NCBI GenBank assembly: GCA_031257835.1
Contig: JAIRNY010000008.1
Coordinates: 1 to 33,690 of the forward strand
DNA length: 33,690 nt
DNA from: Candidatus Endomicrobiellum cryptotermitis
Lineage (GTDB): Bacteria; Elusimicrobiota; Endomicrobiia; Endomicrobiales; Endomicrobiaceae
Direction: 5' to 3'
Shown: positions 2,141 to 31,203 of the stretch, one piece after another
Position numbering within the stretch: position 1 is the first letter of the stretch
Layout: each line of letters begins with the position of its first letter
Notes under the pieces: generated by a model
Database searches by the model: none
Told to the model about the DNA's origin: nothing
The model's input: only the letters and a program-made list of their open reading frames with translations
Translations under genes and position numbers: made by a program

Positions 2141-4240
2141 TTAGAAAGTGTTTAAAAGTTTTTGATAGCTTGTCAGAGGCCAGAATTCACCTGAAACTAA
2201 GTCTTCTACAGCGTCTACTTTTTGTCTTAAAGTATCCAAAACTTCTACACCTTTAGATGCAAACTCTTTTGCAGTTTCTGCTAGTTGACTATGTGCAATT
2301 GTAACAAATTTATCTAACTCCGAATTATATTTACTTATATCCTCATAAAGTTCAACTAACGTTTTAATTTCTTTTACAAATATATCTGACTTCAAGTTTA
2401 GTTCTACTAAATTTTTGGCAGTTTTAGAAACTTTGTCTATTTGTTTTAAAATTGCAGGTAAAATTAATGTGTTTACAATTTTTATAGCATACTTATATTC
2501 TATCTCTTTAGTTTTAATGTAATTTTCAAGTTTTATTTCTACTTTCGATTTTAGTTCTCTTTCATTTAATATGTTAAATTTAGCAAGAGAATTAACAACA
2601 TCTTGGCTTAAAAAAAGTTTTAAAGCTTCAGGTGTATTTTTAGCATTAGGAAGGCCTCTTTTTTCTGCTTCTTTATGCCAATCTTGTGAATATCCATTTT
2701 TTTCAAATCTTATGTTTTTTGTTTCTGAAATTATCTCTTTTACAACTTCTAAAGCTTTTTGCTTGACATCTACATTACCTTTTTTAGATTCTATCCTGTT
2801 ATAAATTTCATTAAATCCGTAAGCTGCTATAAAATTTAGTACGGTACCAGCTTCTGACGGGTTTGAAGAAGCCCCTAAAGCTCTAAACTCAAATTTGTTA
2901 CCTGTAAACGCTACAGGAGAAGTTCTATTTCTATCAGAATAATCTTTATTAACTTTTGGAAGATTTTGAACGCCAAGGGTAATTTCGTTTACTTCTTTCT
3001 CGTCAATAGTCCTTGCTTTTTCTATAGAATCTAACAAGTTACTTACATACTCCCCAAGGTACACTGACATTATTGCAGGAGGAGCTTCGTTTGCACCAAG
3101 TCTGTGGTCATTACCAGCATCTGCAACACTAGCCCTTAAAATTCCACCAAACTTTTTTACACCGAATAACACTGCACTTACTGCTATAAGAAAAGATATA
3201 TTTTTAAGAGGAGATTTTGAAGGTTCAAAATAATTTGCGCCAGTGTTATCACCAATAGACCAGTTAAAATGTTTGCCGGAACCGTTTATTCCAGCAAAAG
3301 GTTTTTCGTGAAGGAGTGCTACCATATTGTGCTTATCTGCAACTTTTTTTAACACTTCCATAATCTGCAGATTGTTGTCTATAGCTAAGTTAACTTCTTG
3401 ATGTAAAGGTGCAAGCTCAAACTGATTAGGAGCAACTTCATTATGCCTTGTCTTGACTGGGATTCCTTTACGATATAAAGTGTTGTCCACTTCTTCCATA
3501 AACTCTAAAATATTTTCTCGTATGTTGCCAAAATAGTGTTCTTCCATTTGTTGCCCTTTTGCTGGTTTGTTGCCAAAGAGCGTTCTTCCTGTAACTGTAA
3601 TATCGGGCCTAGAAGCAACTAAATCTTTTGATAAAAGAAAGTACTCTTGTTCTATCCCTGCAAAAACTTTAACTTGTTTTGCATTTTTGTTACCAAGCAG
3701 TTTTTGTAAAGCAATAACTTTTTCATTTAAAACTGTAAGAGACCTAAGTAAAGGTGTTTTTAAATCTAAAACCTCGCCTGTCCAAGAAAGAAAAACTGAA
3801 GGAATTACTAAAGTTTTTGTTCTTCCAGACTCTAAAAGAAATACTGGAGAAGTTGGGTCCCAAGCTGTGTATCCCCTTGCTTCAAATGTAGACCTTATGC
3901 CCCCTGAAGGGAAAGAAGATGCATCTGGTTCTGACTGTACAAGCTGAGATGCTGAAAACCTTTCTATTATCTCACCATTATCACCATAATCTATAAAAGA
4001 GTCATGTTTTTGTGCAGTCCCCCCTCTTTGAGGTTGAAACCAATGAGTGAAATGCGTCGTACCATTTTCTAATGCCCATTCTTTCATAGCGTGGGCAACT
4101 TCCCCAGCTATTGACTGGTCTAGAGGTTCTACATTATCTATAACAGCAACAAGTTTTTTGTAGATGTTTTTGCTTAGTTTTTGCTCCATAACTTTTTTTG
4201 TAAACACCAATTCGCCATAATAGTTGTGTATTGCTTGCAT
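2141..4240 (-). CDS. glnN: Glutamine synthetase type III
   Basis: ATP-dependent ligation of ammonia to glutamate in the cytoplasm. The roughly 700-residue length is typical of GSIII and far longer than type I (about 450). Visible family blocks are KGQQMEEHYFG, the NEVAPNQFELAPLHQE block, NGSGKHFNWSIGDN (ATP/glutamate site), RLGANEAPPAIMSVYLG, and DRNRTSPVAFTGNKFEFRALG with SNPSEAGTVLNFI. The C-terminal 200 residues are helical and lysine-rich as in the family. I chose the ATG at 4240 (MQAIHNYYG) because AAGGAG lies five bases upstream (4246-4251) and a promoter places transcription near the alternative ATG at 4270. It is monocistronic, with its own promoter and terminator. Next to two sodium-coupled amino-acid symporters it suggests nitrogen assimilation is a retained function. 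The gene is intact. Confidence 0.96.
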   Translation of the reverse strand: MQAIHNYYGELVFTKKVMEQKLSKNIYKKLVAVIDNVEPLDQSIAGEVAHAMKEWALENGTTHFTHWFQPQRGGTAQKHDSFIDYGDNGEIIERFSASQLVQSEPDASSFPSGGIRSTFEARGYTAWDPTSPVFLLESGRTKTLVIPSVFLSWTGEVLDLKTPLLRSLTVLNEKVIALQKLLGNKNAKQVKVFAGIEQEYFLLSKDLVASRPDITVTGRTLFGNKPAKGQQMEEHYFGNIRENILEFMEEVDNTLYRKGIPVKTRHNEVAPNQFELAPLHQEVNLAIDNNLQIMEVLKKVADKHNMVALLHEKPFAGINGSGKHFNWSIGDNTGANYFEPSKSPLKNISFLIAVSAVLFGVKKFGGILRASVADAGNDHRLGANEAPPAIMSVYLGEYVSNLLDSIEKARTIDEKEVNEITLGVQNLPKVNKDYSDRNRTSPVAFTGNKFEFRALGASSNPSEAGTVLNFIAAYGFNEIYNRIESKKGNVDVKQKALEVVKEIISETKNIRFEKNGYSQDWHKEAEKRGLPNAKNTPEALKLFLSQDVVNSLAKFNILNERELKSKVEIKLENYIKTKEIEYKYAIKIVNTLILPAILKQIDKVSKTAKNLVELNLKSDIFVKEIKTLVELYEDISKYNSELDKFVTIAHSQLAETAKEFASKGVEVLDTLRQKVDAVEDLVSGEFWPLTSYQKLLNTF

Positions 4241-4283
4241 AGATACTCCTTGTAAAAAATGTTTCTTCATTAACTATGCTGAT

Positions 4284-8350: not shown

Positions 8351-9118
8351 CTAATGGTTGATTAAATCAAAATCATCACAAGACAAGTTGAAATGTTTAA
8401 TTATCTCAGTCATTGCCTCTGTAGCTTTTAATGGAATAAAAATGTCTGTAATATTGTTTGTAAAAGTTGAGGGCGAAGGATTAATTTCAATAATAGTGGC
8501 ATTATGCTTTTTTACTTCAAATGGAAGTGAAGCTGCAGGATAAACAGTGCCAGTAGAACCTATAATAAGCATAACATCACATATAGAACACTCCTTTATA
8601 GACATTTTTAGGTCATACTCTGGCAACATCTCTCCAAAAAACACAAAGTCTGGCTTTAGTATTGCATTACAAAGTTTGCAACGAGGTGGAGCTTGTAAAT
8701 CAAAATCTATAATAGAGTACTTACTATTGTCTTTCATGCAGATCAGTCTTTGCGCATTACCGTGAAGTCCATATACATTTTTATTTCCAGCTTTTGTATG
8801 TAAATTATCAATATTTTGAGTAACTACAGATTTTAATAACCCGCCTTGTTCAAGTTTGGCAATTGCAATGTGAGCTGCGTTTGGGATCGCTTTAAGAGTA
8901 GTTTCATAAAACCCGTCGCAAAGCATACCCCAAGTTTCTTGTGTATGGTTTATAAAATAGTTTATATCAAAAAGTTTTTCTTCATATTTGTTCCAAATAC
9001 CATTTTTTCCACGGAAAGGAGGGATACCACTTTCAACAGAAATGCCTGCACCTGTAAAAGATATTACGTATTTTGATTTACTTAAAATATTTATAGCTTC
9101 TTGTACAGCTTTTTGCAT
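8351..9118 (-). CDS. cobB: Sir2-family NAD-dependent protein deacylase (CobB-like)
   Basis: Removes acyl groups from lysines using NAD+. The Rossmann signature GAGISVESGIPPFRG sits at residues 23-37, then TQNIDNLHTKAG, the catalytic histidine in YGLHGN, the PPRC..C zinc half-site with DFVFFGE, and IIGSTGTVYPA near the C-terminus. The usual first zinc pair (C-x2-C after the catalytic histidine) reads ICMKDN: one cysteine is followed by aspartate where the second cysteine is expected. The zinc site therefore has three cysteines plus a possible Asp. AAGGG stands six bases before ATG. The gene is intact at 255 residues, normal for bacterial sirtuins. Confidence 0.93.
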   Translation of the reverse strand: MQKAVQEAINILSKSKYVISFTGAGISVESGIPPFRGKNGIWNKYEEKLFDINYFINHTQETWGMLCDGFYETTLKAIPNAAHIAIAKLEQGGLLKSVVTQNIDNLHTKAGNKNVYGLHGNAQRLICMKDNSKYSIIDFDLQAPPRCKLCNAILKPDFVFFGEMLPEYDLKMSIKECSICDVMLIIGSTGTVYPAASLPFEVKKHNATIIEINPSPSTFTNNITDIFIPLKATEAMTEIIKHFNLSCDDFDLINH

Positions 9119-26452: not shown

Positions 26453-27738
26453 TTATTCCAACAGCCAATTTAAAATATTTTTGACGATTATGCCGTCATA
26501 GGATTTAACAAAAGGTGTGTCTGCCGTTAATATTGTTTTTTTATAGTTGTCTTTTAAGGTCATAAGAGGTGTAAGTTCGCGTTGTTTTGTGTTTTCGTTT
26601 AGCATTGATTGCGTCACTTGATAATACTCAACACCCTTAACTCCTTCAACTACAAAATCTATTTCTGCAGATTTCATTTTTGCATCTTTTTTATCATAAA
26701 TGTCAGACTTGCCGACATAAACTTTAAATCCACGTCTTATTAGTTCCAAATAAACAATATTTTCTAAAATTCTACCACTGTCGCAATCTTTGTCACCAAG
26801 CAAATAATACCTTAAACCTATATCTGAAAGATAATATTTGTCCTGCGTTCTTAAAAGATTTTTCCCTTTAATATCATATCTTTGCACCTTATAGAAAATA
26901 TAGCCGTCGCACAAGGCGTCAATATAATTTTCAAGCGTTTGTGGATGAATTTTGAACCCGTCAGAAGACATAATGTCGCTTATTTTTTTTATAGACGTTA
27001 AGTTGCCTATATTGTCTGCCATAAAACGAATTACCCGCTCTAAACGAGATATTTCCTGTACTTTTTTGTGTTCTCCAACATGTTTTAAGACTATGGAATT
27101 ATATATTCCGGATATATATTCTCGTATTTGCAAGGATAAATTTTGAACGTTATTTTGCATAATCATTTGAGCAACATATGGGAATCCACTAAATCTTAGA
27201 TATTGCTGAAACAGGCTGCTCTTATCTTGATCTTTGTCAAAAATATCGTTATATTCCTTAAATGATAAAGGCAAAATATGTATCTGTATATAACGTCCAG
27301 CAAGCATAGTAGCCCACTGACCGGATTGGAAATGCGACTTTGACTCACTTAAGTATAAATCAACATTGCTTTTAATAAACAATCCGTCTGCGGTACGCTG
27401 AAAGTCTTCGACATTTTGAATTTCATCTAAAAAAACATAATTTCTTATCATTTAATAACTTGGATTGAACATAGTCAAACAATATTTTCCACTCTAAATT
27501 AAGTTATGATAATTAGGATCTTCAAAATTTATGTTTATTATTTGACTTTTATCTACACCTTCAGATAACAATCAGATAACAATTTTTCTTGATATAATTT
27601 AAATAAAGTTGATTTGCCCGAACGGCGAATGCCTGCAATAAATTTAATTACTTGTTTGTCTTTCCAAGATACTAGTTTTTGAATATACTGCAGTCTTTGG
27701 AACCTAATGATGTCTCCTTTTATTAAAAGACAATACAA
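26453..27738 (-). pseudogene. Second-type AAA/DUF4143 ATPase, broken by frameshifts
   Basis: The N-terminal frame (27553-27738) has KLVSWKDKQVIKFIAGIRRS GKSTLF (Walker A) and stops at KLLSDCYLKV. Removing one copy of an 11-base tandem duplication (27562-27583) gives continuous KLLSEGVDKSQIININFEDP, followed by a stop and then EWKILFDYVQSKLLNDKK in another frame. A third frame starts at NYVFLDEIQN (Walker B) and runs clean through the sensor, winged helix, YYLSDIGLRYYLLG and SAEIDFVVEG to the end. AAAGGAG at 27714-27720 is followed five bases later by ATT (27706-27708) where a start codon is expected, so initiation may also be lost. It belongs to a different subfamily from the genes at 9244 and 20995 (GIRRSGKS rather than GMRQ.GK). 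Confidence 0.88.
27562..27583. repeat. Exact 11-bp tandem duplication
   Basis: CAGATAACAAT occurs twice head to tail (27562-27572 and 27573-27583). Eleven bases shift the frame of the ATPase gene; deleting one unit restores the conserved reading, so this is the inactivating event at that point. Confidence 0.9.
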
Positions 27739-28048: not shown

Positions 28049-28735
28049 TTAAATTAAAGATTTGTAAATTTTGTAGTTTTCTTTTCCATCTGAACCATAA
28101 CAAACAATAATGATTTCGTCAAAATCGCTGTCGTTGGAAGCAAGAAAATTTTTTATAGCATTTAAAGCTATAGGAGCTGCTTTATCTTTTGGATAGCCAA
28201 ATATGGCAGTTGAAATACAAGGAAAAGCTACAGTGCGTAGATTATTTGTTTTTGCAACTTGTAAAGAGTTTGTGTAGGCACTTGCAAGTAGATTGGCAGT
28301 TTGCGCGTCAGAATAGCTTGAGTATACTGGCCCAACTGCATGGATAATAAAATGAGCAATTAAATTAAATCCTGGCGTTATTTTTGCATCTCCAATATTG
28401 CATCTGTCTGTACTTGATCCTGGAATAGAGGGTATATTACTTTTTATATGTGAATCTAGCAAATTGTGTCCTGCAGCACCATATATAGCACCGCAGACAC
28501 CATCACCTGGATTAAGTTGTGCGTTGGCAGCATTTACTATAGCATCAACTGGTATTTTTGTAATATCTTCGTAAACTAAGCTAACTTTTCCTTTAGTAAT
28601 TTTTTTGTAACTTGTGTCACCGCTATTGGGACTTGTAGTATTATTTTCGTTAATGCGTTGTACTACATTATCTTTTGAACAACCTAAAAAGAATATTATT
28701 GTAAAAAATAAAATATATACAGTAAGCTGTTCCAT
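28049..28735 (-). CDS. Lipoprotein with a macrodomain
   Basis: A 228-residue predicted lipoprotein: hydrophobic N-terminus and lipobox FFLGC with the modified cysteine at residue 19, then a polar linker of about 25 residues and one macrodomain. Domain blocks are VDAIVNAANAQL, GDGVCGAIYGAAG (ADP-ribose loop), NIGDAKITPG, HFIIHAVGPVY, LASAYTNSLQVA and AFPCISTAIFGYP. Compared with the E. coli YmdB loop as I recall it (GGGVDGAI), the catalytic-loop Asp is Cys here. GGAGG stands seven bases before the ATG, supporting the start that includes the signal peptide. Family members bind or hydrolyse ADP-ribose derivatives, normally in the cytoplasm; export to the envelope is unusual. The gene is alone, with a possible hairpin downstream. 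Confidence 0.9.
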   Translation of the reverse strand: MEQLTVYILFFTIIFFLGCSKDNVVQRINENNTTSPNSGDTSYKKITKGKVSLVYEDITKIPVDAIVNAANAQLNPGDGVCGAIYGAAGHNLLDSHIKSNIPSIPGSSTDRCNIGDAKITPGFNLIAHFIIHAVGPVYSSYSDAQTANLLASAYTNSLQVAKTNNLRTVAFPCISTAIFGYPKDKAAPIALNAIKNFLASNDSDFDEIIIVCYGSDGKENYKIYKSLI

Positions 28736-28844
28736 TTAGTAATTCCTCCGGCTTATAAATTATCAATTGTTTTTTTTAAATATAGTTTAACTTTTTATAT
28801 GAAACAACAGTAAAATGAAAAAAGTTGTGAATTAATTGTAAACT

Positions 28845-30468: not shown

Positions 30469-31203
30469 ATGTTTAAAATTTTTTTATTTACAATTTTGTT
30501 ATTGCCTTATATGTTTATTTGTGGATGCGGCAGTGATAATTATAATATTTTTAGAAGAATTGCAAAAACTACAGCAACCACAGGAAGTCGTGTTAGTGAA
30601 GGGCAGACTGCATTAGCAAATGGGAACTATGATCAAGCTAAAGAAATTTTTAAACAGATTATAGATACATCTCCTAGCGATAGAAAAGCTATTGCAGGGT
30701 ATATAACAGCTACTGTTGGTATGCCTGAGCTTATAGGTAAGATAGTAGAAGCTAGTCAAGAATTTAAGGATAGCGGAAACAAAACAATAGTTAATAATTA
30801 CAAAAATGTTGATATAGAGACGGTTCACGAAATGAAAGTAGATCTTGACTATTTGCTAAAAAATCCAGTTGCTCTACAAACAATGTTAAATGAATCAGAT
30901 TCTCAAGCAAATGTTAGCAACGCGTTAGTTTTTGGCCTTGCTGCTGTTGTAACAATTGCTGATAGTACTGATATAAAAGTGGCTCTTGGGATAGTCGGTG
31001 ACGATGTGGATTTTAACAAAATAATTAATAAAGATTTACCGGAGACTCTTAAAACAAGACCAGAAGCAATGGATGTAATTAGTCAAGCTAGCCAGCTCCT
31101 CGATTTTGCTCAAATGTGTGCTACTAAGATAGCTGGTAAAGATAGGGTTATTATGCTAGAAATGGTTGCTAAATTACAAGATGCTCTAAAGATCAATTAT
31201 TAA
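30469..31203 (+). CDS. Lipoprotein with TPR-like repeat, unknown function
   Basis: A 244-residue predicted lipoprotein with a hydrophobic N-terminus and lipobox FICGC (modified cysteine at residue 20). EGQTALANGNYDQAKEIFKQ with IIDTSPSDRKAIAGYI after it resembles one tetratricopeptide unit (about residues 43-80). The rest is helical and rich in alanine and aspartate, without motifs I recognise. It precedes the PorV-like outer-membrane protein by 52 bases in the same direction. That pairing (TPR lipoprotein plus PorV-like barrel) suggests both are outer-membrane components of one unit, though this is inference. Confidence 0.75.
   Translation: MFKIFLFTILLLPYMFICGCGSDNYNIFRRIAKTTATTGSRVSEGQTALANGNYDQAKEIFKQIIDTSPSDRKAIAGYITATVGMPELIGKIVEASQEFKDSGNKTIVNNYKNVDIETVHEMKVDLDYLLKNPVALQTMLNESDSQANVSNALVFGLAAVVTIADSTDIKVALGIVGDDVDFNKIINKDLPETLKTRPEAMDVISQASQLLDFAQMCATKIAGKDRVIMLEMVAKLQDALKINY

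Follow-up and report, generated by a model that had tools for sequence, protein, structure and literature searches.

The window analyzed here, a 33,690-nt stretch of Candidatus Endomicrobiellum cryptotermitis DNA (assembly GCA_031257835.1, contig JAIRNY010000008.1), carries on its minus strand a gene (28049 to 28735) for a protein of 228 amino acids (P0001, identified as an ORF and by profile search) that is predicted to be a lipoprotein with a macrodomain. Bacterial macrodomains have generally been studied as cytoplasmic enzymes, and no report of a lipoprotein macrodomain was found in the literature that we searched on exported or symbiont macrodomains; judging from its sequence, the new element here is a MacroD-like macrodomain of the cysteine type that appears to have been turned into a lipoprotein. 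We consider, with moderate confidence, that the protein is an ADP-ribosyl hydrolase of MacroD-like type that is anchored by a lipid and acts outside the cytoplasm. Members of Endomicrobiellum are Elusimicrobiota endosymbionts of termite-gut flagellates (PMC11257099), and the whole genome to which the window belongs (1.05 Mb, 87% complete) contains one macrodomain.

Start site, lipobox, and export route

The ribosome-binding site GGAGGA is located 8 nt 5′ of the ATG (28744 to 28749, minus strand) and is identical in the two ~90%-identity homologues, which come from MAGs of Candidatus Endomicrobiellum roisinitermitis (L002) and incisitermitis (L003). From codon 2 to at least codon 75, no ATG, GTG, or TTG codon occurs in any of the three genes. 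M1 is therefore the sole conventional start before the macrodomain, and any translation of the domain must include the signal region. This bears out the statement of the first-pass annotation that the ribosome site selects the start that includes the lipobox, and it rules out a cytoplasmic protein with a misassigned start. Neither promoters nor terminators stood out from chance in a scan of the sequence surrounding the gene.

The predicted signal peptide (residues 1 to 18, MEQLTVYILFFTIIFFLG; 28682 to 28735, minus strand) is hydrophobic and is followed by C19SKDN, so that the lipobox reads FFLG|C19, with the cysteine (28679 to 28681, minus strand) in the range of about 15 to 35 that is typical of lipoproteins. 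Both orthologues (91%) retain signal and lipobox (MKQLTVILFFTIIFFLGC in L002 and MQQLSVYILSFTITFFLGC in L003). Orthologues lacking the lipobox, or starting after residue 30, had been named beforehand as the mark of a cytoplasmic protein; they are not what was found. Analogous signals occur in two more distant relatives at another locus, adjoining serS: the 44%-identical protein of genome G009 has its own FISC lipobox (MIKILSIILTVSFCCCFISC, then GKYN), as does that of G063 (MRLKIIKILSSILAVSFCCCFISC, then GKDN), where a frameshift follows (DNA read by eye). When the first 30 residues were shuffled, a lipobox arose by chance in 0.6% of cases, and of the 398 long open frames in a 267-kb portion of the window genome, 5 passed the lipobox screen. 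Since it is rare in both and is conserved in L002, L003, and the G009 protein, the lipobox, called clear in the first pass, exceeds chance expectation.

According to the PROSITE rule PS51257, a lipoprotein has Lys or Arg among its first seven residues. Such a residue is absent from the window protein (MEQLTVY) and from L003 (MQQLSVY) and present in L002 (MKQ), G009, and G063. In our reading, the protein would be exported by Sec, Cys19 would be lipidated by Lgt, and LspA would cleave before it; the genes for Lgt and LspA adjoin each other in the window genome (G000:C5:31032-32224). Under the +2 rule of Escherichia coli, a Ser after the cysteine directs a lipoprotein to the outer membrane, and the window protein has Ser, not Asp, at this position. 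The flexible linker of 28 residues (residues 20 to 47; 28595 to 28678, minus strand), which is rich in Asn, Ser, and Thr and has low confidence in the predicted structure, would thus tether the macrodomain outside the inner membrane or, likelier by this rule, to the outer membrane. A search for LolA succeeded in G009, G017, G031, and G034, gave a weak match in G065, and found none in the window genome, an 87%-complete MAG; LolC/E-like proteins were identified by reading the sequence in G017 and G031 and by a match in G009 and G034. Endomicrobiellum is described as retaining murein, LPS, and several outer membrane proteins while having lost many envelope genes (PMC11257099). The four cysteines of the domain count against our reading, being unusual for an oxidizing periplasm, although the host is anaerobic.

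The residues after the lipobox cysteine (CSKDN in the window, CGKDN in G063) resemble the surface export signal C-X-K-D of Bacteroidetes, a likeness that is suggestive only, with so few lipoproteins to compare. A second predicted lipoprotein of the window (30469 to 31203, plus strand), with weak TPR similarity, has the lipobox FICG|CGSDNYN, whose post-cysteine start resembles the CSKDN of the macrodomain protein; a relative in L003 reads CDKDNYN. This could be a shared sorting motif, though the cases are few.

Macrodomain class and active site

The macrodomain spans residues 48 to 228 (28052 to 28594, minus strand), as delimited by Pfam, the model, and the structure search, and is indeed complete: the Pfam Macro profile (PF01661) is matched over its full length (1 to 118 of 118) with 115.6 bits against a cutoff of 22 (E value, 1.6e-33). 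The overall pLDDT of the AlphaFold model is 84; most values exceed 90 from residue 50 on, and residues 9 to 45 fall below 50. A comparison of a predicted structure with YmdB had been suggested; a Foldseek search with the model groups it with human MACROD2 (closest; E value, 5e-18), OiMacroD, and YmdB. By sequence and fold, the closest solved relatives are of the MacroD type, with MACROD2, MACROD1, OiMacroD, and YmdB among the top ones. The best score against the NCBIfam PRK00431 models (YmdB/O-acetyl-ADP-ribose deacetylase equivalogs) was 159.6 against a cutoff of 200, and the protein fell below every PRK00431 cutoff. The Zn-Macro class was rejected: its structures match more weakly than MACROD2, and macrodomains of ~280 amino acids in other genera of the family, taken to be Zn-Macro, sit on a separate branch away from the Endomicrobiellum clade. 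The TARG1/PARG type was set aside in view of the MacroD-like catalytic and F179 loops.

The catalytic loop reads GDGVC81GAI in the window and GGGVDGCI in MACROD2, confirming that the loop Asp of MacroD and YmdB enzymes is replaced by Cys81 (28493 to 28495, minus strand). This cysteine lies 10 residues after Asn71, the spacing of N30 and D40 in OiMacroD, and corresponds in position to Cys49 of the rubella virus (RuV) macrodomain (PMC10878246). The two residues of the classic Asp-His dyad are replaced jointly: the window has Cys and Tyr, and Firmicutes homologues have Cys and Phe. The catalytic-loop pattern of MacroD enzymes, Nx(6)GG[VLI] (PMC10878246), is matched by L002, L003, G009, and G063 (GGV); the window has Nx(6)DGV, and RuV, which deviates at the same place, is still classed as MacroD type (PMC10878246). 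The pattern of the β6-α4 loop, G[VIA][YF]G, is likewise missed, with A177-I-F-G in the window, L002, L003, G009, and G063 and SIFG in one of two G034 genes (G034a). In OiMacroD, G132, V133, and Y134 bind diphosphate. Because two MacroD signature positions deviate (D78 and A177), we call the window protein MacroD-like rather than a canonical member.

The first-pass annotation had taken the Asp-to-Cys change to imply that binding without hydrolysis is possible, which bears on a rival explanation: the protein might be an exported reader or scavenger, an adhesin or capture protein that attaches to ADP-ribose or to tagged host proteins and performs no useful catalysis. In line with it, D78, unique to the window among the seven Endomicrobiellum sequences aligned over the active site, and A177, which takes the place of the diphosphate-loop Gly in five of the seven (window, L002, L003, G009, and G063), modify the loops through which distal ribose and pyrophosphate are contacted. 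However, Asn71, G180, and Y181 are present in 7/7 rows and F179 and C81 in 6/7 each (F179 is missing only from the divergent G034b), the GGGV loop of the two orthologues (L002 and L003) is canonical, and a cysteine at the site of the catalytic Asp is associated with activity, not with its loss. RuV Cys49 contributes to de-MARylation, half removal being reached at 500 nM with C49A versus 20 to 25 nM (PMC10878246); Cys34 of Getah virus reacts with ADP-ribose (PMC10878246, PMC7729036); a catalytic-loop cysteine occurs in 241 of 1,706 microbiome macrodomains (PMC7729036); and OiMacroD D40A, with reduced activity, keeps ~14% of its catalytic efficiency (PMC5413906). The cysteine therefore does not carry the earlier implication, and hydrolysis by the window macrodomain is to be expected rather than excluded. 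We thus regard a noncatalytic reader as unlikely and a hydrolase as the better description: the domain most likely binds ADP-ribose and would hydrolyze ADP-ribose esters, whether on mono-ADP-ribosylated proteins or as O-acyl-ADP-ribose, with Asn71 and Cys81 acting in the manner proposed for togavirus-type macrodomains.

Distribution, selection, and genomic context in Endomicrobiellum

The macrodomain gene was found in 7 of 42 searched genomes of the genus, including one that has just a degraded copy, and was absent from the other 35. In the tree, the seven Endomicrobiellum macrodomains that could be aligned group in a single clade (support, 98/97) with three sublineages at different genomic places, and each carries an export signal or carried one before a frameshift. 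Genome G034 has two of these genes; the signal of G034b is of the Sec type without Cys, and a homologous Sec-type signal stands in another reading frame of G034a. To look for such signals more widely, we screened 115 distinct macrodomains (6 from Endomicrobiellum) by hydropathy and lipobox pattern, and a convincing N-terminal export signal was found in none of the 109 from elsewhere. Among the flagged exceptions, L023, L034, and L097 have hydrophobic segments far upstream in long fusions, and L044 and L136 have stop-to-stop extensions that are probably untranslated. The proposed search for further lipoprotein macrodomains was thus rewarded within the genus, by the FISC lipoboxes of G009 and G063, and not among the 109 macrodomains screened from outside it. 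As the relatives are Endomicrobiellum MAGs and the lipobox is conserved, the earlier proposal of an envelope-anchored macrodomain in an intracellular symbiont is supported. The genus-wide export signals suggest action on ADP-ribose tags outside the bacterium's own cytoplasm.

The gene is dispensable: at the place of the window gene, G023 has a pseudogene (L024) broken at the lipobox and by frameshifts, G063 and G034a are frameshifted, and most genus members lack it. The degraded copy and the frameshifts, together with a dN/dS among the three orthologues (0.29 to 0.46) above that of the neighboring exodeoxyribonuclease-like gene xth (0.16 to 0.25), would fit a nonfunctional relic that recently entered a genome undergoing reduction and is now decaying there. 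Yet the three full-length orthologues show a significant nonsynonymous deficit (P = 0.0002 to 0.03), so that the gene is under purifying selection, and ribosome site, lipobox, and active site are conserved; we give the relic very little credence. The patchy distribution and shifting loci also fit a conflict gene that shields the symbiont from envelope-acting, ADP-ribosylating toxins made by competitors or phages. This seems quite improbable, however: no toxin partner was identified, and few competitors share the intracellular niche. As to origin, a recent transfer from the cysteine-type proteins of Firmicutes was not supported, the Firmicutes/Chloroflexota Cys clade being separate from the Endomicrobiellum clade in a tree whose deeper nodes are poorly resolved. 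A phage or plasmid origin was likewise rejected, with only ordinary macrodomain matches below 60% identity, the best of which did not align to the signal region.

SIR2 was found in 7/7 macrodomain genomes of the genus and in 13/35 of the others (Fisher P = 0.003, with relatedness uncontrolled), and a SIR2-family gene is located in the window itself (8351 to 9118, minus strand). This would suit housekeeping clearance of sirtuin-made O-acetyl-ADP-ribose, as proposed for YmdB-type enzymes, with the location of the protein incidental. Sirtuins are cytoplasmic, though, and the macrodomain protein is exported; the association is weak among genomes more than 90% complete (4/4 versus 5/11; P = 0.10), and 13 SIR2 genomes do without the macrodomain. 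We hold this explanation to be improbable.

Several further observations concern copy number and gene content. The two G034 macrodomain genes lie on different contigs (L081, 1 to 1545, and L082, 1 to 1008), the second with a degenerate catalytic loop. Their C-terminal stretches are identical and reach the contig end in both cases, which makes it probable that the assembly broke at a repeated C-terminal module. In L003, ~1.8 kb before the intact gene, a decayed fragment (about 2170 to 2280; G031:C34:5738-5848) with internal stops resembles macrodomain residues 91 to 127 (51% identity) and adjoins an apparent ribbon-helix-helix/PIN toxin-antitoxin pair; it is possibly the relic of a second macrodomain copy. 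A DUF4143/AAA_14 ATPase-family ORF of the window (26453 to 27451, minus strand) begins partway into the protein that L002 has as an intact 426-amino-acid version, and the gene therefore looks broken in the window. The window also encodes a type III glutamine synthetase (2141 to 4270, minus strand; GSIII_N, 9e-73), and all Endomicrobiellum have been stated to lack the glutamine synthetase GlnA (PMC11257099); the search behind that statement may not have covered the type III gene, or the lineage may differ.

Proposed role and known systems

Taking the protein as a lipid-anchored hydrolase, its likely setting would be the interface with the flagellate host, and its most likely role there would be the removal of ADP-ribose from proteins or metabolites. 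A bolder version, which we put forward only tentatively and think less probable, is that of a genus-specific exported macrodomain family that erases host ADP-ribosylation at the symbiont surface, two lineages having arrived there by lipoprotein anchoring and a third by Sec secretion, as a cellular counterpart of the viral macrodomains that blunt the ADP-ribosylation defense of their hosts. A lipid-anchored macrodomain that is kept in reduced symbiont genomes and exported in every lineage of the genus points to ADP-ribose chemistry at the symbiont-host boundary, and it offers a compact, testable protein for asking whether protist hosts mark symbionts by ADP-ribosylation.

With human MACROD1 and MACROD2, Oceanobacillus OiMacroD, and E. 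coli YmdB, the window protein shares the fold, the NAAN motif, the catalytic-loop Asn, and the β6-α4 aromatic residue. It differs from them in its predicted export and lipid anchor, in Asp to Cys81, His to Tyr85, and Gly to Ala177, and in an extra segment around residues 98 to 110. The Togaviridae/rubivirus-type macrodomains (RuV p150 and Getah virus nsP3) have the cysteine at the Asp position and act in or near the eukaryotic cytoplasm, the latter a likeness only under the role proposed here. The likeness lies in this residue; the window protein is cellular, bacterial, and a predicted lipoprotein. The Firmicutes/Chloroflexota GGGVCGAIF proteins (L005, L008, L012, and others) have the same loop cysteine and aromatic pair but no export signal, several have C-terminal extensions, and they form a separate clade. 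The chlamydial Inc macrodomain proteins (PMC3048545) are likened by fold; they are type III secreted with a bilobal transmembrane anchor and are not lipoproteins. As membrane-anchored macrodomains of an intracellular bacterium that are proposed to face the host (PMC3048545), they nevertheless provide a conceptual precedent for a host-facing macrodomain such as the one envisaged here.
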